Below are positions 16,269 through 41,056 of a stretch of 64,000 bases of DNA, piece by piece (position 1 is the first letter of the stretch; each line of letters opens with the position of its first letter). The notes below the pieces were generated by a model, which was not told where the DNA came from, searched no databases, and worked only from the letters and a program-made list of their open reading frames with translations. This stretch comes from Lysobacterales bacterium. Its GTDB lineage: Bacteria; Pseudomonadota; Gammaproteobacteria; Xanthomonadales; Xanthomonadaceae. The position numbers were made by a program, and so were the translations under genes. Location of the stretch: the NCBI GenBank assembly GCA_019510125.1, contig JAEKKX010000004.1:62001-126000 (forward strand). Reading direction: 5' to 3'.

Positions 16269-16297
16269 ATGAACGCGCTGTTCGCGATGGAAGCCAA
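16269..16297 (-). promoter_or_regulatory. Repeated promoter-like element, copy A
   Basis: Read toward the gene: TTGGCT (16297-16292), 17 bases, GTTCAT (16274-16269), with ACAGCGC directly before the second box. It faces the accessory gene starting at 16235. A longer imperfect hairpin (AAGCC...GGCTT with inner AAGCG...CGCTT) overlaps the TTGGCT end. Seven copies exist in the window. Confidence 0.65.
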
Positions 16298-16421
16298 GCG
16301 AAAGATCGCGCTTATCGGCTTGTTTTTTTCGCTCTTTCGCGAGGTCCGTCGTGCATCGATTGTCGGTGCGCAATGCCGCGTATCGGCGCGGCATTACGTC
16401 AGGCTGCGTTGCGCTGCGACA

Positions 16422-16991
16422 TCACGCCGTCGGCGCGGCCTCGACGATGCGGTAGACGCGCACGCCGCCTTCGGCCTTGTCGGAGGTGACGGTCAGGCCG
16501 AGCTTCTTCTTGAAGGCCCCGGCGAAGGTGCCGCGCACCGTGTGCGCCTGCCAGTTCGTCGCTTCGCAGATCTGCGCGATGGTGGCGCCTTCGGGTCGCT
16601 TGAGCATCGCGATCACCTGCGCCTGCTTGCTGTTCTCGCGGGTGCGCGGCGCGGCCTGTTCGCCTTCGCCGGAGGCTTCGGTCTTCGGTGCGGCCTTGGC
16701 TTTGCGTGCGGCCTTCTTGCCGGCCGGCGTCGCCGTTTCGGTGGCGGCGGTCTGCTCGGGGCGCGCGCGGCCCAGCGCCTCGTAGGCGGCATCGGTGACG
16801 ATCCAGTCGCCGTTGTTGCCGATGATCATTGCGCGGGTGAAGAGGCCTTCGATGACCTTCTTGCGCGCGCCGCCCTTGATGGTGTCGGGGAACCATTCGA
16901 CCTTGCCTTGCGTGCGGTCGATGGCGTGGGTCAGCACGGCGGTCTGGGTGTCGTTGAGCGTGATCGGCTTGGCGGTGGTGGCGGTGTTCAT
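16422..16991 (-). CDS. DUF3489 family phage protein
   Basis: 189 residues from the ATG at 16991, with CAGGAG 7-12 bases upstream. The N-terminal half (LNDTQTAVLTHAI, then WFPDTIKGGARKKVIEGL) is an HTH-like domain, the middle is a Lys/Ala-rich linker, and the C-terminal 65 residues (SKQAQVIAMLKRPEGATIAQ, then WQAHTVRGTFAGAFKKKLG) are the DUF3489 winged-helix domain. Inferred role: a small DNA-binding control protein. The promoter-like copy B stands 50 bases upstream. Confidence 0.8.
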   Translation of the reverse strand: MNTATTAKPITLNDTQTAVLTHAIDRTQGKVEWFPDTIKGGARKKVIEGLFTRAMIIGNNGDWIVTDAAYEALGRARPEQTAATETATPAGKKAARKAKAAPKTEASGEGEQAAPRTRENSKQAQVIAMLKRPEGATIAQICEATNWQAHTVRGTFAGAFKKKLGLTVTSDKAEGGVRVYRIVEAAPTA

Positions 16992-17041
16992 TGCGGTGCT
17001 CCTGTTTGCGTGTGGTGTTTGGGTTTGGTTGGCGCGATGGG

Positions 17042-17070
17042 ATGAACGCGCTGTTCCCCACCGAAGCCAA
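17042..17070 (-). promoter_or_regulatory. Repeated promoter-like element, copy B
   Basis: TTGGCT (17070-17065), 17 bases, GTTCAT (17047-17042), pointing to the DUF3489 gene. ACAGCGC is conserved before GTTCAT. A second TTGGCTT lies about 30 bases further upstream without a matching GTTCAT box. Confidence 0.65.
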
Positions 17071-17171
17071 GCGCTCATTCGCCGATCCGTGCGTCGTTAA
17101 GCCAACGGACGGGAAGCCGTCGCCTGGCGCGCTGTGCGCGCGCGAAGTCAAGTCATTGGTCAAGCATTCGG

Positions 17172-17723
17172 ATGGGAATTTCGATCCGCGCGTATGCGCG
17201 CCATCGCGGCGTCACCGACACCGCGGTCCACAAGGCGATCCGTGCCGGGCGCATCGCGCCGGAGGCCGACGGCACCATCGATGCGGCGAAGGCCGATGCG
17301 GAGTGGGCGCGCAATTCCGCGCCGGCACGCAGCGGCACGCAGGCGCGCGCACCGCGCGTGACGGTGCCGGAGGCGGCCGACATCGGGCGCGAGACGGGCC
17401 GCGACGCGGGCACGGCGGCGCTGCCGGCGGGCGGTGCGTCGCTGTTGCAGGCGCGCACCGTCAACGAGGTCGTCAAAGCGCAAACGAACAAAGTGCGATT
17501 GGCCCGCCTCAAAGGCGAGCTGGTCGAGCGTTCGCAGGTCGTGGCGCATGTGTTCAAGCTGGCGCGCGACGAACGCGATGCGTGGCTGAACTGGCCCGCG
17601 CGCGTGTCGGCGCAGATGGCGGCGACGCTGGCGGTCGATCCGCATGCGATGCATCTGGCGCTGGAAGCGGCGGTGCGCGCGCACCTCGCCGAATTGGGCG
17701 AGGTGCGAGTGAAGGTGGATTAG
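17172..17723 (+). CDS. Terminase small subunit, Nu1-like
   Basis: 183 residues. The start (ISIRAYARHRGVTDTAVHKA) is an HTH that would bind the packaging site, followed by a linker and a helical part (ARLKGELVERSQVVAHVFKL) typical of Nu1-like small terminase proteins. It precedes the GpA-type large subunit, but a minus-strand gene lies between. Its TAG stop shares bases with the TAA stop of that convergent gene. Role: recognising phage DNA for packaging. Confidence 0.8.
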   Translation: MGISIRAYARHRGVTDTAVHKAIRAGRIAPEADGTIDAAKADAEWARNSAPARSGTQARAPRVTVPEAADIGRETGRDAGTAALPAGGASLLQARTVNEVVKAQTNKVRLARLKGELVERSQVVAHVFKLARDERDAWLNWPARVSAQMAATLAVDPHAMHLALEAAVRAHLAELGEVRVKVD

Positions 17724-18079
17724 GCGCTCACGAGCAGCGCGCAGGCCTGCTGGAGCAGGTGGTCGACCATCGCAAGGCGCGCGTGTCGGGCGGGATCGTC
17801 GTTGTCCTCGTCGCTGCGCGTTTCGATGCGGATGTGCATTTCGGCGAGCAGGCTCTCGATGCCGTCGAGGTGGTCGCCCGCGTGTGGGGCGGCATCGGGT
17901 TCGCCACCGGCCGCGCCGAGCGCCTGCTCGATGCCGCTGACCGCGAAGTTCAGGCCGTTCTGGAACTCCTCGTCGTCGGGATAGGCGTCGTACAGCGACT
18001 CGATGCGCTGGCGGACGAGCAGCAGATCGGTGTGCAGGGGATCGATATCCAAGGTGTCGATATGCATGCGGTCGTTCAT
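17720..18079 (-). CDS. Acidic phage accessory protein between the terminase genes
   Basis: 119 residues from the ATG at 18079, 37 bases after the GTTCAT box of copy C. The sequence is acidic and helical (LLLVRQRIESLYDAYPDDEE, later HLDGIESLLAEMHIRIE) and has no known motif. It lies antisense between terS and terL and ends inside the terS stop codon. As an insertion in a normally contiguous pair of packaging genes it looks like an accessory (moron) gene. Confidence 0.65.
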   Translation of the reverse strand: MNDRMHIDTLDIDPLHTDLLLVRQRIESLYDAYPDDEEFQNGLNFAVSGIEQALGAAGGEPDAAPHAGDHLDGIESLLAEMHIRIETRSDEDNDDPARHARLAMVDHLLQQACALLVSA

Positions 18080-18116
18080 GGCGGTGTTCTCGATGGTCTG
18101 CGTGGCCGGGGACCGC

Positions 18117-18145
18117 ATGAACGCGCTGTTCGCCACCAAAGCCAA
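18117..18145 (-). promoter_or_regulatory. Repeated promoter-like element, copy C
   Basis: TTGGCT (18145-18140), 17 bases, GTTCAT (18122-18117), facing the antisense gene between the terminase subunits. It lies 36 bases before the terL start on the opposite strand, so the two transcription units would diverge from here. Confidence 0.65.
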
Positions 18146-18180
18146 GCGGCGCCGACGTCGCGCTGCAACAAGGTTTACGA

Positions 18181-20139
18181 ATGCTCGATTACGAAGGCGC
18201 GCACGAGATCGAGCGCGCCTGGCACGAGGGCCTGACCCCCGATCCGCTGCTGTCGGTCTCCACCTGGGCCGACCAGCACCGGATGCTGTCGAGCAAGGCC
18301 TCGGCCGAGCCCGGACGCTGGCGTACCGCACGCACGCCGTATCTGCGCGAGATCATGGACTGCCTCTCGCCGGCTTCGCCGATCGAGCGCGTGGTCTTCA
18401 TGAAGGGCGCGCAGGTCGGCGGTACGGAGTGCGGCAGTTGCTGGATCGGCTACGTGATCCACCACGCGCCCGGCCCGATGATGGCGGTGTGGCCGACCGT
18501 GGAGATGGCCAAGCGCAACTCGAAACAGCGGATCGATCCGCTGATCGAGGAGTCGCCGGTGCTGGCGGCGTTGATCGCACCGGCGCGTTCGCGCGATGCG
18601 GGCAACACCATCCTCGCCAAGGAGTTCCGTGGCGGCGTGCTGGTGATGACCGGCGCCAACAGCGCGGTCGGCCTGCGCTCGATGCCGGTGCGGTATCTGT
18701 TTCTCGACGAAGTGGATGGCTACCCGCTCGACGTCGAGGGCGAAGGCGATGCGATCTCGCTGGCGGAAGCGCGCACGCGCACCTTCACGCGCCGCAAGAT
18801 CTTCATCGTCTCGACGCCGACCATCGCCGGCGTCAGCAGCATCGAGCGCGAGTACGAGGCGTCGGACCAGCGCCGGTACTTCGTGCCGTGCCCGCACTGC
18901 GCGCATGCGCAGTGGTTCAGGTTCGAGCGGCTGCGCTGGGAGCGCGGCCAACCTGAAACCGCCGCCTACGTCTGCGAGGGATGCGAGCAGCCCATCGCCG
19001 AGCACCACAAGACGTGGATGCTCGAACAGGGGCAGTGGCGCGCGACGGCACCGGGCAACGGCCGAACGGCCGGCTTCCATCTGTCGTCGCTGTACAGCCC
19101 GGTGGGCTGGCGCAGCTGGCGCGAGATCGCGGCGGCCTGGGAGAGCGCGATCGACAAGGTCACGGGCTCGGCGTCGGCGATCAAGACCTTCAAGAACACG
19201 GAACTGGGCGAGACCTGGGTCGAGGAAGGCGAGGCGCCGGACTGGCAGCAGTTGCTTGAGCGGCGCGAGGACTATCGCATCGGCACGGTGCCGCGCGGCG
19301 GCCTGCTGCTGGTCGGCGGCGCGGACGTGCAGAAAGACCGCATCGAGGTCTCGGTGTGGGCGTTCGGCCGCGGCAAGACCGCGTGGCTCGTCGAACACCG
19401 CGTGCTGATGGGCGACACCGCGCGCGACGCGGTGTGGACGCAGTTGCGCGCACTGCTCGCGGAGACCTGGACGCACGCGGGCGGGGCGCAGTTGCCGCTG
19501 GCGCGCCTCGCCATCGATACCGGTTTCGCGACGCAAGAGGTCTATGCCTTCGTGCGCGCCTGCCGGGACAGTCGGGTGATGGCGGTGAAGGGTGCAGCAC
19601 GCGGCGCGGCGCTGGTCGGCACGCCGACGGCAGTAGACGTCACCGTCGCCGGCAAAAAGATGCGCCGCGGCGTGAAGGTGTATACGGTGGTGGTCGGCAT
19701 CGCCAAGCAGGAGCTGTACCAGCATCTGCGCCTGCACGCCGACGTGGCGGAGGACGGCCTGACGCCGGTGTATCCGGCCGGTTACCTCCACCTGCCGAAG
19801 ATCGATGCCGAGTTCCTGCAGCAGTTGTGCGCGGAGCAGTTGATCACGCGGCGGGACCGGAACGGCTATGCGGTCCGCGAGTGGCAGAAGCTGCGCGAGC
19901 GCAACGAGGCGCTCGATTGCTACGTGTACGCGCGCGCTGCAGCGGCAGCGGCCGGACTGGATCGTTTCGAGGATCGTCACTGGCGCGAACTGGAACGCTC
20001 GCTCGGGCTGCCGCCGCCGGAAGCGCCTCCGCCGATCTCGAACCCGGAACCCGACCAGGCCACCGACTCCGGTGGCCTTTCCACATCTGCGCGCCCGAAT
20101 CGTCGGCGCGTGATCAAGAGCCGTTGGCTCCATCGCTGA
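18181..20139 (+). CDS. Terminase large subunit, lambda GpA family
   Basis: 652 residues. Walker A-like KGAQVGGTE is at 75-83 and Walker B LFLDEVD at 173-179. Two CxxC pairs (CPHC, CEGC) near residues 239-265 fit the zinc-binding insert of GpA proteins, and the C-terminal nuclease half follows (DTGFATQEVY region). Role: ATP-driven packaging and cutting of concatemer DNA. Length is normal. A strong hairpin followed by TTT lies inside the last 80 bases of the gene (20058-20080). Confidence 0.93.
   Translation: MLDYEGAHEIERAWHEGLTPDPLLSVSTWADQHRMLSSKASAEPGRWRTARTPYLREIMDCLSPASPIERVVFMKGAQVGGTECGSCWIGYVIHHAPGPMMAVWPTVEMAKRNSKQRIDPLIEESPVLAALIAPARSRDAGNTILAKEFRGGVLVMTGANSAVGLRSMPVRYLFLDEVDGYPLDVEGEGDAISLAEARTRTFTRRKIFIVSTPTIAGVSSIEREYEASDQRRYFVPCPHCAHAQWFRFERLRWERGQPETAAYVCEGCEQPIAEHHKTWMLEQGQWRATAPGNGRTAGFHLSSLYSPVGWRSWREIAAAWESAIDKVTGSASAIKTFKNTELGETWVEEGEAPDWQQLLERREDYRIGTVPRGGLLLVGGADVQKDRIEVSVWAFGRGKTAWLVEHRVLMGDTARDAVWTQLRALLAETWTHAGGAQLPLARLAIDTGFATQEVYAFVRACRDSRVMAVKGAARGAALVGTPTAVDVTVAGKKMRRGVKVYTVVVGIAKQELYQHLRLHADVAEDGLTPVYPAGYLHLPKIDAEFLQQLCAEQLITRRDRNGYAVREWQKLRERNEALDCYVYARAAAAAAGLDRFEDRHWRELERSLGLPPPEAPPPISNPEPDQATDSGGLSTSARPNRRRVIKSRWLHR
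20058..20080 (+). terminator. Terminator-like hairpin inside the 3' end of terL
   Basis: GGCCACC and GGTGGCC form a perfect 7-base stem with a 6-base loop, followed by TTT and CC. It lies within coding sequence, so it may only attenuate the long late transcript, or be a coding coincidence. Confidence 0.3.
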
Positions 20140-20149
20140 GATTCGTTGC

Positions 20150-20371
20150 ATGAGCTACACCTCCGAACAACTCGCCGCGCTCGAACGCGCGCTCGCGACC
20201 GGCGAACAGCGCGTGAACTTCGGCGATCGCACCGTCGAATACCGCTCGATCGACGACCTGATCGCCGCGATCGGCGTCGTGCGACACGGTCTCGAAGAGC
20301 AGGCGATCGCCGCCGGCACCGTCAAGCGCCGCCCGCGCCGCGTCGTCGTGAACACCGACAAGGCGACGTGA
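20150..20371 (+). CDS. Head-tail joining protein, gpW-like
   Basis: 73 residues, starting 10 bases after terL. YTSEQLAALERALATGEQ and YRSIDDLIAAI match the gpW family fold (two helices with a small hairpin). In lambda this protein sits between terminase and portal genes and plugs the head before tail joining; the position is the same here. Confidence 0.8.
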   Translation: MSYTSEQLAALERALATGEQRVNFGDRTVEYRSIDDLIAAIGVVRHGLEEQAIAAGTVKRRPRRVVVNTDKAT

Positions 20372-20375
20372 TCGC

Positions 20376-21857
20376 ATGAGTTGGTGGTCGCGGCTGCGCG
20401 CCCGGATGTTCGGCGCGTCGCCGACCTACGACGGCGTCGGCGGCGGGCGTCGTGCGCGCTTCTGGCAGGTCGGCAATCCCGGCGCGGTCGCGGCGCTCGC
20501 CTACGCGCAGGACGAACTGCGCGCCAAGAGCCGCGATCTGGTGCGTCGCAATGCCTGGGCGGCGACCGGCGTCGAGGCGTTTGTCGCGAACGCCATCGGT
20601 ACCGGGATCAAGCCGCAGTCGATGCTCGCCGATCTCGACCAGCGCGAGGCGGTGCAGGCGCTGTGGCGCGACTGGTGCGAGGAGGCGGACGCCGCAGGCC
20701 TGACCGATTTCTACGGCCTGCAGGCGCTGGCGTGCCGAGCGATGCTCGAAGGCGGCGAGTGCCTGGTGCGGTTGCGCTACCGGCGGCCGGAAGATCGCCT
20801 CAGCGTCGGCCTGCAGCTGCAACTACTCGAACCCGAGCACCTGCCGACGACGCTGAATCGGGAGCTGCCCAACGGCAACGTCATCCGCGCCGGCATCGAG
20901 TTCAACGGCATCGGCGTGCGCGTCGCCTATCACTTGTACAAGAGCCATCCCGGCGACGGGATGCTCGCGCCGATGTCGGCGCACGGCGGCCTGGACACGG
21001 TGCGTGTGCCGGCGAACGAGATCCTGCACCTGTTCCGCCCGTTGCGCCCCGGTCAGATTCGCGGCGAGCCGTGGCTGGCGCGGGCGCTGGTGAAGCTGCA
21101 CGAACTCGACCAGTACGACGATGCGGAACTCGTGCGCAAGAAGACCGCGGCGATGTTCGCGGGCTTCATCACCCGCGGTGCGCCCGAGGATGCGCTGCTG
21201 GGCGAGGGCGAGGCCGATGCGCAGGGTGTCGCGATGGCAAGCCTGGAGCCGGGGACGATGCAGTTCCTGGAGCCGGGCGAGGACGTGAAGTTCTCGCAGC
21301 CGGCGGATGTCGGTTCGAGCTACGCCGAGTTCATGCGCCAGCAGTTCCGCGCGGTCGCCGCCGCGATGGGCATCACCTACGAAATGCTCACCGGCGATCT
21401 GACGCAGGTGAACTACTCCTCCATCCGTGCCGGGCTGCTCGAGTTCCGGCGCCGCTGCGAGGCGATCCAGCACGGCGTGATCGTGCATCAACTGTGTCGC
21501 CCGCTGTGGCGCGCGTGGATGACGCAGGCGGTGCTCGAAGGCGCGCTGACGCTGCCCGGCTACGCGCGCGGCGGCGTCGCGCGTCGTCGCCAATACCTCG
21601 CGGTGAAGTGGATCGCGCAGGGCTGGCAGTGGGTCGATCCGAAGAAGGAGTTCGACGCGATGATCGCGGCGATCCGCGGCGGCCTGCTCTCACGCTCGGA
21701 AGCGATCTCCAGCTTCGGCTACGACGCCGAAGACATCGATCGCGAGATCGCCGCCGACAACGCTCGCGCCGATGCCCTTGGGCTGCGCTTCGATTCCGAT
21801 CCCCGTTACGACCACCCCGCGCAAGCGGCGGCGACACCTGCTTCCCAGGCGAATTGA
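20376..21857 (+). CDS. Portal protein, lambda gpB family
   Basis: 493 residues. FVANAIGTGIKP near residue 70, the central EILHLFRPLRPGQIRGEPWL segment and VNYSSIRAGLLEFRRR near residue 346 are hallmark segments of lambda-type portals. It forms the 12-subunit ring through which DNA enters the head. The stop overlaps the protease start by one base. Normal length and gene order. Confidence 0.93.
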   Translation: MSWWSRLRARMFGASPTYDGVGGGRRARFWQVGNPGAVAALAYAQDELRAKSRDLVRRNAWAATGVEAFVANAIGTGIKPQSMLADLDQREAVQALWRDWCEEADAAGLTDFYGLQALACRAMLEGGECLVRLRYRRPEDRLSVGLQLQLLEPEHLPTTLNRELPNGNVIRAGIEFNGIGVRVAYHLYKSHPGDGMLAPMSAHGGLDTVRVPANEILHLFRPLRPGQIRGEPWLARALVKLHELDQYDDAELVRKKTAAMFAGFITRGAPEDALLGEGEADAQGVAMASLEPGTMQFLEPGEDVKFSQPADVGSSYAEFMRQQFRAVAAAMGITYEMLTGDLTQVNYSSIRAGLLEFRRRCEAIQHGVIVHQLCRPLWRAWMTQAVLEGALTLPGYARGGVARRRQYLAVKWIAQGWQWVDPKKEFDAMIAAIRGGLLSRSEAISSFGYDAEDIDREIAADNARADALGLRFDSDPRYDHPAQAAATPASQAN

Positions 21858-23131
21858 TGACCTCCCTTGTCCACCTGGCGTCCCGTCTCTACGGGACGCC
21901 GCTGCTGATCGCGCGCGCCAAACTCGACACGATCCTCGCCGTGCTCGGTCCGCGCATCGGACTGGCGCCGACCGAACTGGCGTTGCCGGTCGTCGTGCCG
22001 GCCGCAGCGGAACCCGAACCCGGCCCGACCGCGCCCGGTATCGCCGTGATTCCGATCCACGGCACGCTCGTGCGCCGCGCGATCGGACTCGATGCCGCCT
22101 CGGGCCTCACGTCCTACACGCGCATCGCCGCCGATCTGGATGCCGCGCTCGCGGCCCCGGAGGTCGCGGGCATTCTGCTCGATATCGACTCGCCCGGCGG
22201 TGAAGCCGGCGGCGTGTTCGAGTTGGGCGCACGCATTCGTGAGGCGAGCGCACGAAAGCCGGTGTGGGCGCATGCCGGCGACAGCGCGTTCTCCGCCGGC
22301 TATGCGCTCGCTTGCGCTGCGCAGCGCGTGACGCTCGCGACCACCGGCGGCGTCGGCTCGATCGGCGTGATCGCGCTGCACATCGACCAGTCGGTGCGCA
22401 ACGCGCAGAACGGTCTCAGCGTGACCGCGCTGTATGCCGGCGCACACAAGAACGACGCCACCCCACACGCGCCGCTGACGCCGCAGGCGACCGACGCGCT
22501 GCAATCCGAAATCGATCGCCTCTACGCCCTGTTCGTCGCGCACGTCGCCGCCATGCGCGGCCTCGACGCCAACGCCGTGCGCGCGACCGAAGCGGCGCTG
22601 TTCTTCGGCGAGGACGCGCTCGCTGCGGGCCTCGCCGATGGCGTCGCGTCGCTCGACGCCACCCTCGCCGACTTCGCCACCGCCCTCGGCAGGCGCGGGC
22701 GTCCGCCCGGTTCCAACCCACCGCTCGCATTACCCGCGCGCCTTGCGCTCCCACCCCCCACGGAGTTGTCCATGACCGAATCCACTGCGACGGCGCCCGC
22801 GCCGTCCACGCCCCCTGCCGCGCCCGCACCGGCCGCTGTGCCGGCGCCGACCGCGTCCGTCGCGCCGCCTTCCACCGATCCGCAGGCAGAGGCCGTCGCC
22901 ATCGCCGAGCTGTGCCTGCTCGCCGGTTGCCCGGAACGCACCACCGAGTTCCTCGCCGCGCGCATGAGCGCCGCCCAGGTCCGCCAGGTGTTGCTGCAAG
23001 CCCGCGCCGACCAGGTCGAGATCGCCTCGCACCACCTCGCGAACGCGGCGCCTGCGGCGGCGACCACCACCAACCCGGTCCTCGATGCGGTGCGCAAGCG
23101 CATCGCGTCGACGACCCCGCAAGGAGCCTGA
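21857..23131 (+). CDS. Capsid maturation protease (S49, lambda gpC-like) with scaffold tail
   Basis: 424 residues. The ClpP-like S49 domain is visible: LLDIDSPGGEAGG, the nucleophile in SAFSAGYALA, and a likely catalytic Lys in GAHKND. The C-terminal 120 residues are Pro/Ala-rich, then helical, and act as scaffold in lambda. An internal in-frame ATG at 22772 with CGGAG upstream gives the scaffold alone, as lambda Nu3 is nested in C. Role: shaping and trimming the prohead. Confidence 0.9.
   Translation: MTSLVHLASRLYGTPLLIARAKLDTILAVLGPRIGLAPTELALPVVVPAAAEPEPGPTAPGIAVIPIHGTLVRRAIGLDAASGLTSYTRIAADLDAALAAPEVAGILLDIDSPGGEAGGVFELGARIREASARKPVWAHAGDSAFSAGYALACAAQRVTLATTGGVGSIGVIALHIDQSVRNAQNGLSVTALYAGAHKNDATPHAPLTPQATDALQSEIDRLYALFVAHVAAMRGLDANAVRATEAALFFGEDALAAGLADGVASLDATLADFATALGRRGRPPGSNPPLALPARLALPPPTELSMTESTATAPAPSTPPAAPAPAAVPAPTASVAPPSTDPQAEAVAIAELCLLAGCPERTTEFLAARMSAAQVRQVLLQARADQVEIASHHLANAAPAAATTTNPVLDAVRKRIASTTPQGA
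22772..23131 (+). CDS. Nested scaffold protein, Nu3-like
   Basis: An in-frame internal start within the protease gene, with CGGAG 6-10 bases upstream, would give 119 residues: a Pro/Ala-rich arm followed by a helical part (EAVAIAELCLLAGCPERTTE, then MSAAQVRQVLLQARADQ). This matches the lambda C/Nu3 arrangement. Internal initiation is inferred. Confidence 0.6.
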   Translation: MTESTATAPAPSTPPAAPAPAAVPAPTASVAPPSTDPQAEAVAIAELCLLAGCPERTTEFLAARMSAAQVRQVLLQARADQVEIASHHLANAAPAAATTTNPVLDAVRKRIASTTPQGA

Positions 23132-23134
23132 GCC

Positions 23135-23545
23135 ATGCCTGTGCTGCACGAACCCGTCAACCTCGCCGACCTGCTCAAGTACGAAGCCCCGAATCTGTAC
23201 TCCCGCGACGAAGTCGTCGTCGCCGCGGGCCAGACCCTCGCGCTCGGCGCCGTCGTCGGTCGCGTGACCGCGACCCGCGAGATCGTCGCCCTCGATCCCG
23301 CCGCGAACGACGGCCGCGAGATCGCCGCCGGTGTCCTGATCGAAGCGATCACCACGACCGCGACCGAACGCCGCCGCAGCGTGATCGTCTCGCGTCACGC
23401 CATCGTCTTTGGCGGCGCGCTGGTCTTCGCCCCCACCCTCACCGCCGAACAGACCGCAGCTGCCCTCGCGCAGCTGGCGGCGCTCGGCGTCCTCGTCCGT
23501 CAATTCCCCCAGGTCGCCGCCTCCCATGCTGAATCCCTTCGCTAA
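23135..23545 (+). CDS. Head decoration protein, gpD-like
   Basis: 136 residues, 3 bases after the protease stop. LLKYEAPNLYSRDEVVV and the beta-rich body with GVLIEAI and VSRHAIVF resemble lambda gpD, which stabilises the expanded head. Its end overlaps the major capsid gene by 20 bases in another frame. Confidence 0.85.
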   Translation: MPVLHEPVNLADLLKYEAPNLYSRDEVVVAAGQTLALGAVVGRVTATREIVALDPAANDGREIAAGVLIEAITTTATERRRSVIVSRHAIVFGGALVFAPTLTAEQTAAALAQLAALGVLVRQFPQVAASHAESLR

Positions 23546-24536: not shown

Positions 24537-24545
24537 GGCACGCCC

Positions 24546-25070: not shown

Positions 25071-25372
25071 GCAGTCCGCTCGATCCGGCCTTCGAGGCCG
25101 CGCACGACGCGCTGTTCGCGGTATTCGGCGAGCCGGCCATTGTGCGCCGCGGTCGCCGGCCGCCGGTGCCGGTGCGCGTGGTGATCACCTACAACGTCGC
25201 CGAGCTGGGCGACTACAGCCAAGGCTTCGCCCGCGTCACCACCGTGAAGTTCCGCAATCCCGAGTGGCGACCGCGTGCGGGCGATGTCCTGCATGTCCCC
25301 GGCGGACGGTTCCGGATCGAGCGCATCGTCGTCGACGACGGTTTCGTGACCGAAACGGTGCTGCATGGGTGA
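25067..25372 (+). CDS. Head-tail connector, gpFII-like
   Basis: 101 residues starting at a GTG that overlaps the endolysin stop by 4 bases. The beta-rich body (PVRVVITYNVAE, then GDVLHVPGGRFRIERIV) resembles gpFII-type proteins that sit at the head-tail joint. The position between head and tail genes agrees. Confidence 0.65.
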   Translation: MSSPLDPAFEAAHDALFAVFGEPAIVRRGRRPPVPVRVVITYNVAELGDYSQGFARVTTVKFRNPEWRPRAGDVLHVPGGRFRIERIVVDDGFVTETVLHG

Positions 25373-33925: not shown

Positions 33926-35640
33926 TGGCGGCCTTGACCGGCATCGTGCCGACGCTGCGGGCGTTCGGCGCGATCAATCCTGCGCTCTCGACCGAGTTGA
34001 ATGCGCTCGGCGAGGCCGCGTTCGCCCCGGCCGCGTACCGTCGCGAGCGCATCGTCGCGCGGGCAGGGGTGTTTCGGGCGCCGGCCGCGCTGCGCTGGCC
34101 CGCGACCGGGCGCCTCGCGCACCGGTTCGCGGAGGACCTGTTCGACCGCGTCCACGTCCTGCCGACCGCGCTGTCGCTGGGGAACGTCGTCTCCGAGCTG
34201 ACCCGCGAGATCGCGGTGTGGAATGCCTGGCGCGCGATCCCGCAGACGCTGACCGCGTTGCGACTGGGGGGCGATGCCGGCAGCACGCTCGCTGCGCCGG
34301 GGGCGTTGCCGCTGGCGCTGCGTCCGCTGCAGGAGCGGGTGCTGACCCTCACCGTGGGCCTCGACGGCCCGCCGGTGATCGACGCGGTGGCGGGGCTGTC
34401 CTTCGCCGACGGCGCGACGTGGTCGATCCGGATCGACGGCCTGCGCCTGCAGGCATGGACGCTGCCGCCCAACTGGTCCGAGCCGCTGACCGAAACGCTC
34501 GCCTGGCTCACCGATGTCCAGATCGCCATCGCCGGCACCGTCACCCGCACGCCGCTGCGCGAGGCGCCGCATCGGTCGTGGGAGTTCGCGGTGCTCGCCG
34601 ATCGCGTCGAACGCCGCTGGGTGGAGTACGCGCTGTTCGACTGGACGGCGCGGGTGTGGGCGCTGCCTGTGTTCGTCGACACGACGCACCTTCGTGCGCC
34701 GCTCGCCGCGGGTGTGACCGAGATCCCGGTCGACACCGCGGGCCTCGATTTCGCGGTCGGTAGCCTCGCCATGCTCTGGCGGGACGTGGCGACCTACGAA
34801 CTGGTCGAAGTCGCGCAGATCGCGAACGGTCGCATGACGCTGCGCGCGCCGACGCGCCGCGCGTGGCCGGTCGGCACACGCCTGATCCCGTGCCGCACCG
34901 CGCGCCTGACCGACGCGCCGGAGTTACGGCGCCACACCGACCGGCTGATGTCCACGCAACTGCGCTTCGAGGCGACCGAACCCTGCGACTGGCGGCCTGC
35001 ACTGCCGGCGACGCGCTATCGCGGCTTCCCCGTGCTCGAACACCGCCCGGACGAAACCCGTGACCCGAGCGCGATCCTGGCCCGTCGCTTCGATCTGCTC
35101 GATGGCGACGTCGGCCGCACGCAGGTCGACGATGCGTCGGGCCTGATGTGGACCACGCAGTCGCATGCGTGGCGGCTGGTCGGCCGCGCCGAACGCGCGG
35201 GTCACCGCAGCCTGCTCTATGGCCTGCAGGGGCGGGCGGAGGCGCTGTGGTTGCCGACCTGGACCGACGATCTGGAGGTGACCGAGACGATCGGCGAGAC
35301 CGCGCTCACGCTCACCGTCGCCGCCTGCGGCGTCGCGCGCAGCCTGCGCCAGCAGGCGGGGCGTCGCCACGTTCGCATCGAACTGGTCGATGGCGCCGTG
35401 TTCTACCGCGCCATCGAAGCGTCGAGCGAACTCACGCTCGCCAACGGCGATGCGGCCGAACGGCTGAGGCTCGATGCAGCGCTGGGCCGCGTGATCGCAC
35501 CCGACCGGGTCCGGCTGGTGTGCTGGCTGGCGCTGGTCTCGCTGGCGGGCGACACGGTCGAACTGCGCCACCACGCCGACAGCGACGGTCTGCTCGACTG
35601 CGCCGTGTCCTTCGCCGGGATTCCGGCGGAAGAACCCTGA
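33925..35640 (+). CDS. Distal tail structural protein, unknown family
   Basis: 571 residues. The N-terminal half is hydrophobic/beta-rich (LSLGNVVSELTREIAVWNAW), the C-terminal half has RFEATEPCDWRPALPATRYR, then GLMWTTQSHAWRLVGRAERA. The order tape measure, three large tip proteins, BR0599-type protein and large terminal protein is recognisable from related prophages. Probably a baseplate hub component. Confidence 0.6.
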   Translation: MAALTGIVPTLRAFGAINPALSTELNALGEAAFAPAAYRRERIVARAGVFRAPAALRWPATGRLAHRFAEDLFDRVHVLPTALSLGNVVSELTREIAVWNAWRAIPQTLTALRLGGDAGSTLAAPGALPLALRPLQERVLTLTVGLDGPPVIDAVAGLSFADGATWSIRIDGLRLQAWTLPPNWSEPLTETLAWLTDVQIAIAGTVTRTPLREAPHRSWEFAVLADRVERRWVEYALFDWTARVWALPVFVDTTHLRAPLAAGVTEIPVDTAGLDFAVGSLAMLWRDVATYELVEVAQIANGRMTLRAPTRRAWPVGTRLIPCRTARLTDAPELRRHTDRLMSTQLRFEATEPCDWRPALPATRYRGFPVLEHRPDETRDPSAILARRFDLLDGDVGRTQVDDASGLMWTTQSHAWRLVGRAERAGHRSLLYGLQGRAEALWLPTWTDDLEVTETIGETALTLTVAACGVARSLRQQAGRRHVRIELVDGAVFYRAIEASSELTLANGDAAERLRLDAALGRVIAPDRVRLVCWLALVSLAGDTVELRHHADSDGLLDCAVSFAGIPAEEP

Positions 35641-35650
35641 GTCCACACGC

Positions 35651-36448
35651 ATGGGCCTGCTCTCGCGCGAGATCGAGCTGTACGACTTCTCGATCGGCTT
35701 GCACCACTGGCGCTACACCGACGCCAAACGCGAAGCGATCGTCGAAGGTCAGCGTTACGCCCCGATCACGCTGACGCGCGAGAAGATCGTGCAGTCGGCG
35801 GAAGAATCGAAGAACGCGCTGCAGATCACCGCGCCGCTCGATCTGCCGCTGCTGAACCTGTTCCGCCCCGTGCCGCCGGGGCTGCGCCTGCGCCTGGACC
35901 TCAAGCGGGTGCGGGTGCGCGATGGCCAGGTACGCCTGGGCTGGACCGGGCATGTCGCCAATCTGGACGAGACCCACAGCGTCGCCAAGCTGCGCTGCGA
36001 ATCGCTCGCCGCCGCCGTCGAGACCCTCGGCCTGCGCCGCAGCTGGCAGTCGAACTGTCCGCTGGTGCTCTACAGCCAGGGGCTCGGATTGTGCAACGCC
36101 GATCCGGACGCGCATGCCGTCCCCGCGATCCTGAGCGATGCGACCGGCTACACCGTCGTCTCGGCCGCCTTCGATGCCTTCGACGACGGCCACTTCGACG
36201 GCGGCGTGCTGCAGTGGACGGCGGCGCTCGGCGTCGAACGTCGTTTCGTGGTCAGCCACGTCGGCGCCACCCTGCGCCTGCTCACCCCGGCCGCACTCAC
36301 GCCGGATGCGCGCGTCGTCGCGTTCCCCGGCTGCGATCGCACGCTCGGGCCGAACGGCTGCCCCAAATTCCGCAATGAACTGAACTACGGCGGCCAGCCG
36401 ACCTTGAAGGGCATGCGCAATCCCTTCGGCAGCGACCCGGTCTTCTGA
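35651..36448 (+). CDS. Phage BR0599/DUF2163-like tail protein
   Basis: 265 residues. ELYDFSIGLHHWRYTDAKRE at the start, TREKIVQSAEESKNALQITA in the middle and CPLVLYSQGLGLC, then FPGCDRTLGPNGCPKFRNEL near the end match the BR0599 family, tail components of gene-transfer-agent-like and siphophage tails. Conserved Cys pairs may bind metal. Followed by an 80-base gap before the next small gene. Confidence 0.8.
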   Translation: MGLLSREIELYDFSIGLHHWRYTDAKREAIVEGQRYAPITLTREKIVQSAEESKNALQITAPLDLPLLNLFRPVPPGLRLRLDLKRVRVRDGQVRLGWTGHVANLDETHSVAKLRCESLAAAVETLGLRRSWQSNCPLVLYSQGLGLCNADPDAHAVPAILSDATGYTVVSAAFDAFDDGHFDGGVLQWTAALGVERRFVVSHVGATLRLLTPAALTPDARVVAFPGCDRTLGPNGCPKFRNELNYGGQPTLKGMRNPFGSDPVF

Positions 36449-36529
36449 TCCATTCCCCCGCGACGCACTGCTTGGCGCATGCGCCGGACGGCGGCTGCGC
36501 GCGTCCCGCGCCCCAGGAACCTTTCCACG

Positions 36530-36757
36530 ATGTGGATCTACGTCTTCGTGCTGATTCTCTCCATCGCCATCAGCATCGCGATGCGGCCCAAGCCGCAATC
36601 GACCAAGCCGCCGTCGCTCGCCGACTTCTCGGTGCCGACCGCCGAAGAAGGCCGCGAGGTCATGGTGATCTTCGGCGAGGTGTGGGTGGACGATCCGAAC
36701 GTGCTCGCCTACGGCGATCTGCGCACCACGCCGATCAAGGCCAGTGGCGGCAAGTGA
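36530..36757 (+). CDS. Small membrane-anchored tail-region protein
   Basis: 75 residues from the ATG at 36530, after a CCAGGAACC stretch. A single N-terminal membrane segment (IYVFVLILSIAISIAM) is followed by a short soluble part (SLADFSVPTAEEGREVMVIF). The same small protein often lies before the terminal tail proteins in related phages. It may be linked to the phage, not to lysis; role unknown. Confidence 0.6.
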   Translation: MWIYVFVLILSIAISIAMRPKPQSTKPPSLADFSVPTAEEGREVMVIFGEVWVDDPNVLAYGDLRTTPIKASGGK

Positions 36758-36759
36758 TC

Positions 36760-37044
36760 ATGCCGTCGAATTGCGCGCCGTCGAACAGCACGTCGTCGAA
36801 GCGCGAGTTGCGCATTCACCTCCGCCATGTGCGCGCGATCGATCCGGCAGGTGGGCCGCTCTGCACGCCGGGCATTCGCGCGTGGTGTCGCCAGCACGGC
36901 ATCGATCTGCACGTGCTGTGCGAGGACGGCATCGCTGTCGACGACCATCCCCACCTGCACGACGATCCCTTCGTCGTACGAGTGATCGAGATCGCGCGCG
37001 CAGAGCAGGCGGGTGGGGAAGCGGTGATACGCGATGCGACGTGA
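36760..37044 (+). CDS. Small Cys-containing tail-region protein
   Basis: 94 residues from the ATG at 36760, with a GTG start 6 bases earlier as an alternative. The core (LCTPGIRAWCRQHGIDLHVL, then CEDGIAVDD) is compact with three cysteines. It overlaps the next gene by 11 bases. Unknown function, conserved style in tail-tip operons. Confidence 0.55.
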   Translation: MPSNCAPSNSTSSKRELRIHLRHVRAIDPAGGPLCTPGIRAWCRQHGIDLHVLCEDGIAVDDHPHLHDDPFVVRVIEIARAEQAGGEAVIRDAT

Positions 37045-37330
37045 GTCGATGTATCGCGGCTGGATCGTGGTCGCCTGCGTGGTGTCGATCCTCTCCGGGG
37101 TCTGGCTGTGGGTCACGGGCGAACGCCCGTTCGGCGCATTCGGCATCGCGGCCGGCGTCTTCCACGCGCTGTGGGGTCTCGATCTGCGCGCGCTCGTGCG
37201 TGGGCGTTGGCGGCGACGTCCGATCGTGATCCCGACGCTGCGCCCGATCGTCGTCTCGCCGCCGCATCGAAGCCTCGCGCAGCGCCTGCGCGCGTGGAGT
37301 GTGCGACGTGATGCGGTGAAGCATGGGTAA
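37034..37330 (+). CDS. Small membrane protein with two hydrophobic segments
   Basis: 98 residues. Two likely membrane helices (WIVVACVVSILSGVWLWV and FGAFGIAAGVFHALWGL) are followed by a very basic tail (RRRPIVIPTLRPIVVSPPHR). It overlaps its neighbours by 8-11 bases. The layout is compatible with a small holin-like protein, but it sits in the tail-tip block and I cannot tell. Confidence 0.5.
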   Translation: MRRESMYRGWIVVACVVSILSGVWLWVTGERPFGAFGIAAGVFHALWGLDLRALVRGRWRRRPIVIPTLRPIVVSPPHRSLAQRLRAWSVRRDAVKHG

Positions 37331-39809
37331 GTCGAGCAAGCCGACGATCGGCTATCGCCACTTCATGTACCTGTACATGGGCGAGTCGATCGGCCCGAAC
37401 GATTACCTCGCAGGCGTGAAGGTCGGCGGCCAGACCGTGTTCGAGGGCGAACGCGCCGGCAGCGGCACCCTGGCGATCAACCTGCCGCAACTGTTCGGCG
37501 GCGACAAGAAGGAAGGCGGGCTCGTCGGCACGCTGCAGATCCGCATGGGCGAGCCGGACCAGCTGCCGGTGCCCTACCTGCAGCAGCAGGTGCCGGGACC
37601 GTGGCCTGCCGCGCGCGGGCTCTGCACCACGCTGTACCGCGGAATGGTCGGGGCGATGAACCCTTACCTGAAGCTCTGGGCCAAGCGCTGGGGGCGCTTC
37701 GTGCAGGGCTGGTCGACGCCGGTGTGGCAGCCGCAGCTCGCGCGCATCGGTCGCGGCATGAACGCGGCGCACATCCACTACCAGTGCCTGACCGACACGG
37801 TGTGGGGCTGTGGGCTCGATCCCGCCCTGATCGATGGCGATAGCTTTCTGCGCGCGGCCGAGCAGTTGCACGACGAGGCGTTCGGGTTGTGCCTCGGTTG
37901 GCGGCGCGGGGACTCGATCGGGAATTTTCTGCAGACGGTGAACACCCACGTCGGTGGGCTGTGGGCGTTCGATCCGATGCGCGGCCAGTTCGTCTACCGG
38001 TTGTTCCGACCCGACTACGACGTCGCCACGTTGCCCCTGCTCGACGAAACCAGCGTGCTCGCGCTGGAGAGCTGGCAAACGCCGCTGCTCGATGGCTCGG
38101 TGAACGAAGTCACCGTGCTCGGCCGCGATTGCGTCACGAATCTCGAACTCGCCGCGACCTTCCAGAACATGGCGAACGTCCAGGCGCAGGGCCGCGTCGT
38201 CGCCGACCGGCGCACGCTGCCGGGTCTGTGGAACCGCACGCTGTGCGAGCGCGTCGCCGCGCGCGAGACCGCTGCCGCCAGCAGCTTGCTGCAGCGGATC
38301 AAACTCACCGTCGACCGCCGCTGGTGGGGCGTGAAGCGCGGCGACGTGCTCGCGCTGTCCTGGCGACGGAAGGGCGTACTGCGCATGCCGGTGCGGGTGC
38401 TGGAGGTGGACGAGGGCACGCGCACCGACGGCGCGCTCGCGCTCACGCTGGTGCAGGACATCGACGGCATGGCGGCGACCACCTATCTGCGGCCGGTGAT
38501 CGGGCCGTGGACGCCGCCGGACACGCGTCCGCAGCCGCTGCCGGCGCAGCGCCTGGTCGAAGCGACGTATCGCGATCTGGCCGGTCGCCTGCGCCCTGCG
38601 GATCTGGCGCAGGTCGAGGACGATGCCGGGTTCGTGGTCGCGCTCGGCGCACGCCCGAACGGGCCTGCCTACGGCTACACGCTCGTCACGCGCACCGGCG
38701 CGGGCGACTTCGTCGAGGTCGCGGGCGGGGACTTCTCCGCCACGGCGACCCTCGCGGGCGCGCTGGGGCCAACCGACACGGTCGCGACGCTGGCGGACAC
38801 GCGCGATCTGGATCTGGTTGCCGTCGGCAGCGAGGCGTTGATCGACGAGGAACTGGTGCGGATTGATGCCCTCGATCCCGTCACGGGGACGCTCACGATC
38901 GCGCGAGGGTGCGTCGATACCGTGCCGGTGGCGCATGCGGCGGGTGCGCGGGTGTGGTTCACGGACACCTACGTCGGCGCCGATCCGACCGAATACCTTG
39001 CCGGGGATACCGTCCAGGCGAAACTGCTCACGCGCACGCAACAGGGCACGCTCGATCCCGCACTCGCGCCGGTCGCGCAGGTGCGACTCGACGCGCGCCA
39101 CGCCCGGCCTTATCCGCCGGGCCGGTTGCGGATCAACGGCGCCGCAGGGCCGGCGACGGCGTTCGCGCGACTCGACCTCGCCTGGGCGCACCGCGATCGC
39201 GTGTTGCAGGGCGATCGCCTGATCGAACATGAGGCCGGCAGCATCGGCCCGGAGCCGGGCACGACGACGACCGTGCGTGTCCTGCACGCGCTGAGCGGGG
39301 CGGTGCTGCACGAGACAACGGGCATCGTCGGGACGAGTCATACGGTCGAGGTGCTGCTGGCCAACGACGCCACCGTCCGCGTCGAGGTCGACAGTCGCCG
39401 CGGCGTACTCGTGTCCCACCAGCGGCACGTCTGGACGATCGCCTGCGAATGCGGCGAGAAGCTCGCGAACGCGGACTTCGACACCCCGGCGGCGTGGACG
39501 CTCGGCGCCGGCTGGTCGATCGCCGGTAGCGCCGCGGTCAAGGTCGCCGGTACCGCCTCCGATCTCACGCAGCCGTTCGCGTTCGTCGACGGCGGCGTGT
39601 ACCGCACCGAACTGGTGTTGTCCCAGGTCACGGCGGGTTCGGTACGCGTCGGCCTCGCGGGCGTCGCACCCATCGATGGCGCGACGCGCAACGCGAATGG
39701 CGCCTTCGTCGAAATGCTCACCGCGAACGCGAACACCGCGCTGCGCATCGCCGCCGACGCCGCGTTCGCCGGCCGCATCGAGCGTGTCAGTCTGCGCCGG
39801 TTGGCGTAG
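37323..39809 (+). CDS. Terminal tail tip protein, host contact candidate
   Basis: 828 residues, the last plus-strand structural gene. The N-terminal third (GESIGPNDYLAGVKVGGQTV, then GDSIGNFLQTVNTHVGGLWA) resembles hub-like tail proteins of the BR0599-type systems, and the last 200 residues are beta-rich and Gly/Ala-rich (ANADFDTPAAWTLGAGWSIA), fitting a receptor or carbohydrate-binding tip. Inferred to be the lambda J equivalent. A short hairpin covers its stop (39804-39818). Confidence 0.75.
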   Translation: MGKSSKPTIGYRHFMYLYMGESIGPNDYLAGVKVGGQTVFEGERAGSGTLAINLPQLFGGDKKEGGLVGTLQIRMGEPDQLPVPYLQQQVPGPWPAARGLCTTLYRGMVGAMNPYLKLWAKRWGRFVQGWSTPVWQPQLARIGRGMNAAHIHYQCLTDTVWGCGLDPALIDGDSFLRAAEQLHDEAFGLCLGWRRGDSIGNFLQTVNTHVGGLWAFDPMRGQFVYRLFRPDYDVATLPLLDETSVLALESWQTPLLDGSVNEVTVLGRDCVTNLELAATFQNMANVQAQGRVVADRRTLPGLWNRTLCERVAARETAAASSLLQRIKLTVDRRWWGVKRGDVLALSWRRKGVLRMPVRVLEVDEGTRTDGALALTLVQDIDGMAATTYLRPVIGPWTPPDTRPQPLPAQRLVEATYRDLAGRLRPADLAQVEDDAGFVVALGARPNGPAYGYTLVTRTGAGDFVEVAGGDFSATATLAGALGPTDTVATLADTRDLDLVAVGSEALIDEELVRIDALDPVTGTLTIARGCVDTVPVAHAAGARVWFTDTYVGADPTEYLAGDTVQAKLLTRTQQGTLDPALAPVAQVRLDARHARPYPPGRLRINGAAGPATAFARLDLAWAHRDRVLQGDRLIEHEAGSIGPEPGTTTTVRVLHALSGAVLHETTGIVGTSHTVEVLLANDATVRVEVDSRRGVLVSHQRHVWTIACECGEKLANADFDTPAAWTLGAGWSIAGSAAVKVAGTASDLTQPFAFVDGGVYRTELVLSQVTAGSVRVGLAGVAPIDGATRNANGAFVEMLTANANTALRIAADAAFAGRIERVSLRRLA

Positions 39810-39887
39810 TGCCTACGCGAAGTCAATACACAGGTTGAACCCTCTACGACGGGTGTCCGGTTGTCGCAGCGCGACATCACTTCGCGC

Positions 39888-39916
39888 TTGGCTCGTCGCG
39901 GCGACAGCGCGTTCAT
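39888..39916 (+). promoter_or_regulatory. Repeated promoter-like element, copy D
   Basis: TTGGCT (39888-39893), 17 bases, GTTCAT (39911-39916). It stands 25 bases before the accessory gene at 39942 and 79 bases after the last tail gene, opening the tail-end accessory block. Confidence 0.65.
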
Positions 39917-39941
39917 GCGGCCACACACCACGGAGACGCCC

Positions 39942-40202
39942 ATGAACGATGACAGACCCGCCGCCCAGGACGAAGGCGAGCGCCATTTGCGCGCGCTGAT
40001 CGATGCACTCGCCGCCACGCGCTCGGACATCGAGCTTCAACTGCAGCGTCTTGAAAAGGCGCAATCGCTGGCGGAGCGCGGCGACGTGCTGCGCGATGCC
40101 ATCGTCGCTGTCGAAGATCGCCTCTGCCCGCAAGTCCGTCTCGACCAGTTGGCGCGATTGGGGGATGCCTACGACCTAATCGTGGGAAAGAGCCGCCGCT
40201 GA
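39942..40202 (+). CDS. Small phage accessory protein, helical
   Basis: 86 residues from the ATG at 39942, with GGAGACG just upstream. A single long amphipathic helix region (LRALIDALAATRSDIELQLQ, then RLEKAQSLAERGDVLRDAIV) suggests a coiled-coil. No known motif. It is driven by promoter-like copy D. Confidence 0.55.
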   Translation: MNDDRPAAQDEGERHLRALIDALAATRSDIELQLQRLEKAQSLAERGDVLRDAIVAVEDRLCPQVRLDQLARLGDAYDLIVGKSRR

Positions 40203-40281
40203 TGCCGGCATGCGCCCCGTGCCGCGTGCGCGGGGCGCGATACACCCACCTGTACGGCGACGATCTACGCGCTCGCGGCGC

Positions 40282-40310
40282 TTGGCTTCCATCGCACACA
40301 GCGCGTTCAT
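40282..40310 (+). promoter_or_regulatory. Repeated promoter-like element, copy E
   Basis: TTGGCT (40282-40287), 17 bases, GTTCAT (40305-40310), 39 bases before the start at 40350. The gap 40203-40349 holds nothing else I can support. Confidence 0.65.
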
Positions 40311-40349
40311 GGTCGCGTCGAATCGCCGACGCCCACACGGAGAACGCCC

Positions 40350-40709
40350 ATGCCCACCATGACCATCACCATTGAACGCACGCCCCGCACGCTGGTGTTC
40401 GGCGGCGAAACGCTGCATGTCGAAGAACTCGGCGTGCGACTCCCCTTCGCACGCAAGCCCGAGAGCCTCGAAGAGATGTGCGCCAGCGGCAACGCGCGCA
40501 TATTCATCACCGAAACGGTCGAAATGACGCCCGCCGAGTTCGACACTTTCGCGCGACACCTCTATCTCTCTCGAGAATGGCTCCGAGGCAAGGGCGGCAA
40601 CATCGCCGACGGCGTGCTCTGTGTCGAAGTTCACGCGCCCGGTCGCCCCTACCTCTACGTCGATCCCTCGGGCGGCGACTTCGCCCGCTACGTCGCGCGC
40701 CTCGGATAG
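40350..40709 (+). CDS. Phage accessory protein, unknown function
   Basis: 119 residues from the ATG at 40350, with GGAGAACG 6-13 bases upstream. A beta-strand-rich start (TITIERTPRTLVFGGETLHV) is followed by EFDTFARHLYLSREWLRGKG and YLYVDPSGGDFARYVARLG. No recognised motif. It ends 15 bases before a perfect hairpin. Confidence 0.55.
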   Translation: MPTMTITIERTPRTLVFGGETLHVEELGVRLPFARKPESLEEMCASGNARIFITETVEMTPAEFDTFARHLYLSREWLRGKGGNIADGVLCVEVHAPGRPYLYVDPSGGDFARYVARLG

Positions 40710-40723
40710 CCGAAATCCCCGAA

Positions 40724-40751
40724 AAAGAAGCCAATTCGACTTGGCTTCTTT
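40724..40751 (+). terminator. Perfect hairpin overlapping promoter-like copy F
   Basis: AAAGAAGCCAA (40724-40734) and TTGGCTTCTTT (40741-40751) form a perfect 11-base stem with a 6-base loop. Its 3' arm contains the TTGGCT box of copy F, so the same bases could end the upstream transcript and start the next. The T-run is short (TTT), so termination strength is uncertain. Confidence 0.5.
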
Positions 40752-40769
40752 CCCGAACAGCGCGTTCAT
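40741..40769 (+). promoter_or_regulatory. Repeated promoter-like element, copy F
   Basis: TTGGCT (40741-40746), 17 bases, GTTCAT (40764-40769), 30 bases before the start at 40800. It begins inside the 3' arm of the hairpin at 40724-40751. Confidence 0.65.
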
Positions 40770-40799
40770 GCAGCACTCCACGCCATCAGCCCACAAGAC

Positions 40800-40997
40800 A
40801 TGAAACACCTCGACACACGCCTGACCCGCATCGCACAGCAGCACCTGCGGATCGAAACGCTGGAATCCCGCCGTCGCGACAGTCTGGACTTTCATGAAGT
40901 CTCAGTGCTTGAACTGCGGGATGCGCTGGAAGCGGCCTACCGCGCCGGCATCGAGCAAGGCCGCAAGGGCGCGAAGGCCAACGCCTCTGACGGCTGA
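40800..40997 (+). CDS. Small DUF6900-like phage protein
   Basis: 65 residues. HLRIETLESRRRDSLDFHEV then ELRDALEAAYRAGIEQGRKG matches the DUF6900 style of phage and plasmid proteins. Function unknown. Controlled by copy F. Confidence 0.7.
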   Translation: MKHLDTRLTRIAQQHLRIETLESRRRDSLDFHEVSVLELRDALEAAYRAGIEQGRKGAKANASDG

Positions 40998-41027
40998 ACA
41001 AGGACATCGGACACCGGCCCGATGGGC

Positions 41028-41056
41028 TTGGCTTCCCTCGGGCACAGCGCGTTCAT
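41028..41056 (+). promoter_or_regulatory. Repeated promoter-like element, copy G
   Basis: TTGGCT (41028-41033), 17 bases, GTTCAT (41051-41056), 28 bases before the start at 41085. It is the last of the seven copies. Confidence 0.65.

Follow-up and report, generated by a model that had tools for sequence, protein, structure and literature searches.

A dispersed promoter-like element, TTGGCT-N17-GTTCAT, in front of accessory genes of AcaML1-like temperate phages

Repeated intergenic elements with the geometry of promoters are known from cluster K mycobacteriophages, whose ESAS, in the available excerpts of the papers that describe it (PMC3203893, PMC12699233, PMC11373665), combines -35/-10-like boxes separated by 17-18 nt, whose hexamers are SigA-like, with an imperfect inverted repeat of 15-17 bp, and goes together with a 13-bp SAS near the start codon. 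Here we analyze a different element, TTGGCT-N17-GTTCAT, in a prophage carried by a 64,000-nt stretch of the genome of a Lysobacterales bacterium (contig JAEKKX010000004.1, positions 62,001 to 126,000; "the window" below means this whole stretch). Judging from the same excerpts, both elements are repeated, stand ahead of scattered genes and are kept with gene families across phages. The present one, however, has a -10 box that is not of the sigma-70 type, and its logo shows two different boxes without an inverted repeat. In the window its copies stand 25-50 nt ahead of the start codon (no search for the SAS consensus was made), and the phages that carry it belong to Beta- and Gammaproteobacteria and a few other hosts. 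Closer in gene content is AcaML1 (JX507079), a phage of Acidithiobacillus caldus and the only named phage that matches a 38-base query over most of its length and carries DUF3489. It has a DUF3489 gene and its replication, methylase and head genes in common with the window and carries four copies of the element, but its tested tail genes (Gp46, Gp55, Gp58) find no match in the window or in 20 carrier contigs and, unlike the window, it has no DUF6362. The AcaML1 annotation of positions 1-49,000 contains no feature for the element, the portions of PMC5567305, PMC3203893, PMC12699233, PMC12924245 and PMC11373665 that were available do not describe it, no paper was found for the 13-mer ACAGCGCGTTCAT or for DUF6362, a single one turned up for DUF3489, and none among the matches listed names the element (subscription journals were not covered). 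The sequence comparisons presented below suggest that the element is probably a dispersed promoter class of AcaML1-like phages, with -35/-10 geometry and a probable dependence on a phage factor.

All seven copies listed in the initial annotation of the window are present at the coordinates and on the strands given there, with 0 mismatches, and in each of them ACAGCGC precedes GTTCAT. Allowing up to two mismatches, the window yields 10 matches, where shuffled sequence averages 2.5; the exact ones are these seven only, and within the window the 13-mer ACAGCGCGTTCAT also occurs exactly at the same seven sites and nowhere else. No other site in the host genome carries the full pattern, and the 13-mer without the TTGGCT box has two extra exact matches, on other host contigs. 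Every copy is oriented towards a small gene downstream, the proposed distance of 25-50 nt is correct because the measured gaps between element and start codon (33, 50, 37, 25, 39, 30 and 28 nt) all fall within it, and the structural block of the window contains 0 copies, as had been stated for structural genes. The copies and the genes behind them are listed below, with the last T of GTTCAT numbered -7 and a pyrimidine-purine-pyrimidine (Y-R-Y) signature defined at positions -1, +1 and +2.

16269..16297, minus strand: element copy 1, TTGGCT-N17-GTTCAT, exact match; predicted +1 at 16262 (C-A-C)
15858..16235, minus strand: 125-aa gene behind copy 1; phrog_8020; gene family 1, 84 loci
17042..17070, minus strand: element copy 2, exact match; predicted +1 at 17035 (C-G-C)
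16422..16991, minus strand: 189-aa DUF3489 protein behind copy 2; Pfam PF11994, 6e-34; two predicted winged-helix domains (model, Foldseek); candidate regulator
18117..18145, minus strand: element copy 3, exact match; predicted +1 (18110) without a purine
17720..18079, minus strand: 119-aa accessory gene behind copy 3, flanked by the small- and large-terminase genes and on the opposite strand to them; gene family 14
39888..39916, plus strand: element copy 4, exact match; predicted +1 at 39923 (C-A-C)
39942..40202, plus strand: 86-aa accessory gene behind copy 4
40282..40310, plus strand: element copy 5, exact match; predicted +1 at 40317 (C-G-T)
40350..40709, plus strand: 119-aa accessory gene behind copy 5; gene family 3, 43 loci
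40741..40769, plus strand: element copy 6, exact match; predicted +1 (40776) fails Y-R-Y
40800..40997, plus strand: 65-aa DUF6900 gene behind copy 6; PF21841, 1.8e-23; Shine-Dalgarno motif not clear
41028..41056, plus strand: element copy 7, exact match; predicted +1 (41063) without a purine
41085..41405, plus strand: 106-aa accessory gene behind copy 7; Shine-Dalgarno motif not clear
18181..20139, plus strand: large terminase, start of the element-free late block; homologous to AcaML1 Gp34, 3e-129

Two sets of copies were used to derive the shape of the element: 366 distinct copies found by the motif, and 96 distinct copies from 37 loci picked by their DUF3489 gene alone, where a copy was counted with up to six mismatches. 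The first gives the consensus GCTTGGCTTC-N6-GAACAGCGCGTTMMT, and the second returns the same motif; the second box is mostly GTTCAT, with GTTACT next. Beyond what the initial annotation had recorded, GC stands ahead of TTGGCT in relatives (GCTTGGCTTC), GA ahead of ACAGCGC is conserved in most copies, and a start signature lies downstream; upstream of the element the logo of 366 copies shows little conservation. With up to six mismatches there are 520 copies in 1.84 Mb of loci and 0 in the reversed sequence, the loci having mostly been collected by the motif. The Y-R-Y signature is present at -1/+1/+2 in 82% of 497 copies (74% when averaged over 28 gene families), and at other offsets in 1-31%, except for 62% three bases further on; among the 96 copies from DUF3489-selected loci, -1 is a pyrimidine in 96, +1 a purine in 89 and +2 a pyrimidine in 95. 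The earlier expectation of a start about 7 bases past GTTCAT agrees with this signature, which peaks exactly there.

For the analysis of target genes we took 499 copies with up to six mismatches, an intact CTTGG core and at least 200 nt of sequence beyond, including the seven of the window; others were dropped beforehand. Downstream of 464 of them stands an ATG that has a Shine-Dalgarno motif and an open reading frame (ORF) of at least 35 aa; looking away from the element on the other strand, the number is 149 of 499. The distance from element to start is 30-39 nt for 404 of the 497 chosen starts. The commonest targets are DUF3489 (106), a 122-aa family (84), DUF6900 (81) and a 119-aa family (43). 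The description of the element as standing in front of accessory genes is right in that small accessory genes are targets, but as a statement about these genes only it needs correction, because the element also precedes an operon of DUF2924 and a serine recombinase (in AcaML1 and a number of carriers). We placed 79 copies from 18 contigs relative to the large terminase gene that each of these contigs contains: 66 are on the strand opposite to the gene and either precede it or lie within its first 200 nt, 2 precede it on its own strand and 11 are more than 16 kb beyond; none was found between 200 nt and 16 kb past its start, i.e. among the late genes. A random spread over genes and strands in related phages, which had been named as the outcome that would speak against a promoter-like element, is not what the relatives show, and their arrangement favours a promoter. 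Most contigs with DUF6900 and the 119-aa gene have them on the left side of the terminase, but in the window and in two carriers (G059, G067) these genes are to the right of the tail genes. Identity over the six free spacer bases is 0.475 for the same gene family in different loci, 0.343 for different families in one locus and 0.321 for unrelated copies; as the spacer letters track the downstream gene family and hardly the phage, gene and promoter seem to be inherited together.

The exact pattern was found in at least 120 stretches of viral contigs and at least 116 stretches of genome contigs, and the hosts among the matches listed are mostly Beta- and Gammaproteobacteria, along with Nitrospira defluvii, one metagenome-assembled genome (MAG) each of Geobacter and of an alphaproteobacterium, and a few odd MAGs. 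The full pattern is present in 9 of 59 genomes comprising the window's own and those of its genus, family and order, where the pattern read backwards has 0 matches; a looser pattern occurs in 9 of 274 members of the class (own genome counted), with 0 for its reverse, and in another order, represented by only 5 genomes, the element is found in 2, DUF6362 in 1 and DUF3489 in 2. Among 20 carrier contigs read at length, portal and capsid E are common with AcaML1 and the window in 19, the large terminase in 18 and the primase in 17 (G063 has none of the four, and G080, covered to 40 kb only, is without its left part). The window prophage possesses this lineage set (primase, methylases, terminase, portal, capsid E), and Gp17, Gp24, Gp25, Gp34, Gp36, Gp39 and others of AcaML1 match it with nearly all of their order kept. 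On gene content, the element is that of a wide AcaML1-like lineage of temperate phages whose hosts are very different bacteria. A host regulon was rejected, because all seven full matches of the host genome sit inside the prophage and, in 5 of 5 multi-copy genomes (of 274), an element cluster lies about 10 kb or less from a DUF6362 gene.

If the element is a promoter, GCTTGGCTTC would act as the -35 box, followed by a 17-nt spacer that ends in ACAGCGC, by GTTMMT as the -10 box and by a +1 purine seven bases past it. Each copy would drive one small accessory gene or short operon, the serine-recombinase operon also being driven in this way, and the genes behind the element would form a regulon apart from the replication and late operons. 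The arrangement of a TTG-type box, 17 nt and a second box is promoter-like, as first noted, and shares with sigma-70 promoters the 17-nt spacing and the TTG-- of the first box and, going by the sequence signature, perhaps a +1 seven bases past the second; TTGGCT matches TTGACA at 4 of 6 positions and is near-invariant in copies of the DUF3489-selected loci. In contrast to such promoters, GTTMMT has no A at -11 and the ACAGCGC end of the spacer is strongly kept. Both GTTCAT and GTTACT have T at position 2 and do not qualify as TATAAT-like boxes, which bears out the remark that GTTCAT (T, not A, at position 2) is poor as a sigma-70 -10. Sigma-70 requires A at -11, and because the -10 lacks it and the spacer end is conserved like the hexamers, a phage factor is probably needed; it would be phage-encoded and recognize the element together with host RNA polymerase. 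A sigma-70 consensus scan of both element regions of the window gave 0 sites, and around 92 copies (131 nt each) the best-scoring match to sigma-70, 7.38 of 12, does not exceed that of shuffled sequence (7.55). The classical sigma-54 promoter has GG-N10-GC at -24/-12, whereas the logo of the element has GA 10 nt past GG, and the core site of integron attC is GTTRRRY, whereas in most copies GTT is followed by C-A-T or A-C-T. Promoters of sigma-32, extracytoplasmic function (ECF) sigma factors and sigma-28 were rejected for misfits in spacing or boxes.

The idea of a special factor, already raised as possible, gains support, the candidates being DUF3489 and DUF6362. The best candidate is the DUF3489 protein, whose structural model (mean predicted local distance difference test 80, predicted template modelling score 0.41) shows a pair of winged-helix-like domains with a linker of low confidence between them and whose gene lies behind its own copy; it finds no match among the sequences of solved structures. 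DUF3489 is present in 28 of 30 carrier records, AcaML1 among them, the carriers without a match being G063, where the gene is cut by the contig end, and the 24.7-kb G087. Of 80 loci chosen by DUF3489 alone, 72 have the element (up to six mismatches) within 260 nt upstream. In an independent subset of 37 loci, whose DUF3489 gene lies outside the loci found by the exact element scan, the element precedes DUF3489 in 30 with up to six mismatches and in 29 with up to five, the latter against 50 of 740 random windows of the same loci (41 of 740 in another draw). Elements are found elsewhere in 6 of the 7 remaining loci, and several of the element-less DUF3489 genes closely trail another small gene in an operon-like manner (by eye). 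Small genes beside DUF3489 in Eleftheria and Agarilytica have diverged but similarly spaced boxes ahead of them. Those in Eleftheria have, by eye, TTGCTG, TTCACT (twice) and TTGGCT at spacing 17 and one TTGACG at 18, with GTTCAT, GTCAAT or GTGAAT as the -10, and those in Agarilytica have TTGATG-N17-GTTAAT three times and TTGATC-N17-TTTCAT once; on both plasmids GAGC mostly replaces the GCGC that precedes the -10. In the window and AcaML1 the DUF3489 helix has the sequence WQAHTVRG, against WLPHTVRG or WQKHSVRG in the Eleftheria/Agarilytica group, a covariation of putative recognition residues with the element that, with three outgroups only, is suggestive at most. In Roseicitreum pRA03 (L328), a related alphaproteobacterial element, two small-gene starts, at 4354 and 5205, share a different motif, RGAGC-GATNCT...AAAACGATGCAACTCACC, with a TTG box at spacing 17 in only one of the two; this motif is possibly an alpha version of the promoter. 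Extra DUF3489 genes far from any element copy were seen in G211 (C1:1803798) and G220 (C1:739869), genomes that both also carry the phage.

It is unlikely, though conceivable on the fold predictions, that DUF6362 rather than DUF3489 is the cognate factor, as a sigma-region-4-like protein reading the -35 box. Its gene in the window is as follows.

10625..11041, plus strand: DUF6362 protein, after a RuvC-like gene; PF19889, 5e-30; sigma-region-4-like fold prediction, weak; second candidate factor

DUF6362 is present in 25 of 30 carriers, all 5 of the 274 genomes that have it over the cut-off contain several elements, and sigma region 4 domains (ECF sigma region 4) head its Foldseek list, which also contains Q21, but these fold matches all have E 0.85 or worse, and the sequences of solved structures give two weak matches (E 0.44 and 0.78). 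Moreover, AcaML1 has no DUF6362 despite its four copies (0-2 mismatches); soon after its RuvC-like gene, near the usual place of DUF6362, stands a protein that matches DUF6456 below the cut-off. The position of DUF6362 fits a regulator of the late operon.

A possible, if doubtful, alternative to the promoter is that the conserved letters are mainly an operator, i.e. a phage repressor site over a weak host promoter that silences the genes in the lysogen in the manner of stoperators or ESAS. The conserved positions, -37 to -7, are those where a bound protein would block RNA polymerase, the predicted winged-helix protein DUF3489 is encoded behind its own copy, and cluster K ESAS, in the excerpt available, joins a promoter with a putative regulator site (PMC11373665). 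A repressor over a host promoter should nevertheless leave a TATAAT-like -10, whereas here GTTMMT itself is constrained, and within AcaML1 1-49,000 the region 4,631-16,980, which contains the excisionase and regulator genes, has 0 copies even with up to eight mismatches. Arrays of alternating elements and genes, and gene families that lie left or right of the late block depending on the phage, could also be produced by a recombination tag, a site that moves accessory genes as cassettes, perhaps through the phage serine recombinase. We consider this suggestion of the initial annotation highly improbable and do not retain it, given that spacer identity follows the downstream family and hardly the phage (0.343 against a background of 0.321), the conserved letters fall within promoter geometry and the start signature is promoter-like. 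Equally remote is an RNA element (regulatory RNA or antitermination site) carried by a leader whose transcription begins further upstream: in many copies GCGCT could base-pair with AGCGC, but the outer pairs are not kept (only 48 of 96 copies have C across from a near-invariant G), Rfam gave no match for window 14,000-42,500, the sequence upstream of the element is little conserved, and nothing observed points to antitermination. A short antisense peptide (reverse strand MNAL...) was rejected because the six spacer bases vary freely and, by eye, the changes in the -10 ignore codons.

Several observations weigh against a promoter read by a phage factor. The Y-R-Y signature is present in only 4 of the 7 window copies, and three gene families with 34 copies, whose products are 96, 107 and 112 aa long, lack a purine at +1. 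One of the 37 DUF3489-selected loci (L395) has no element at all, as has one (G136) of the six genomes of the class with DUF3489 over the cut-off. The Foldseek list of DUF3489, rich in MarR-type and other winged helices, is weak (best E 0.048), and a two-domain protein over -37 to -7 would by itself resemble a repressor more than an activator. Finally, four of the 274 members of the class (G094, G222, G286, G348) have a single copy and neither DUF3489 nor DUF6362. They look like remnants. G222 and G286 keep a DUF2924/recombinase operon behind the copy, further pieces with matches to AcaML1 genes are retained in G222 and G348, and in G094 and G348 no ORF was found downstream of the copy.

The homology of the window to the accessory clusters of two carriers ends shortly behind copy 7.

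41479..41480, no strand: right-hand limit of the homology shared with the accessory clusters of G007 and G010; the prophage end beyond is missing

The serine recombinase and DUF2924 operon has no match in the 64-kb window and is present in the regions of G004, G007 and G010 that were compared, where the elements that go with the recombinase are diverged; the right end of the window prophage is probably defective. Immediately to the right of the truncation we noted by eye a MerR-type regulator (41672-42100, minus strand) and a large efflux protein of the resistance-nodulation-division (RND) type (43996-47157, minus strand), and near the left end of the prophage an Imm11 immunity-protein gene (2797-3432, minus strand; PF07791, 3.5e-64). 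G+C drops to 0.56-0.61 in window 50001-55000, compared with about 0.68 over much of the window, and this stretch is perhaps a second foreign segment. The 119-aa gene behind copy 3 (17720..18079) has no match in Pfam, PHROG or PADLOC, and a role of the seven genes in anti-phage defence was dropped after PADLOC gave no match. In AcaML1 (L265), Gp33 (22018-22479, plus strand) is annotated as the small terminase subunit; the small terminase of the window is matched by Gp23 and not by Gp33, which overlaps a DUF6900 match (21994-22179, minus strand) with its own element, so the annotation of Gp33 looks doubtful. The AcaML1 ORFs Gp5 (2985-3176), Gp29 (20407-20787) and Gp30 (20791-21153) traverse element copies in frame (..LGF....QRVHT..), and therefore some database proteins bear translated promoter sequence at one end.

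The element provides a single sequence test that finds accessory genes, including families of unknown function, in a large and almost uncultured phage lineage. We tentatively suggest, as a possibility that stays somewhat short of even, that the lineage encodes its own promoter specificity, DUF3489, alone or with a sigma-region-4-like protein, steering the RNA polymerase of diverse hosts to GTTMMT promoters that the hosts do not use; accessory genes could then be gained singly, each bringing its own private copy of the promoter. This is a concrete hypothesis of a phage that keeps a private gene-expression system across host orders; should the phage factor be true, it would provide a portable promoter/activator pair and a new way of reading phage accessory loci.

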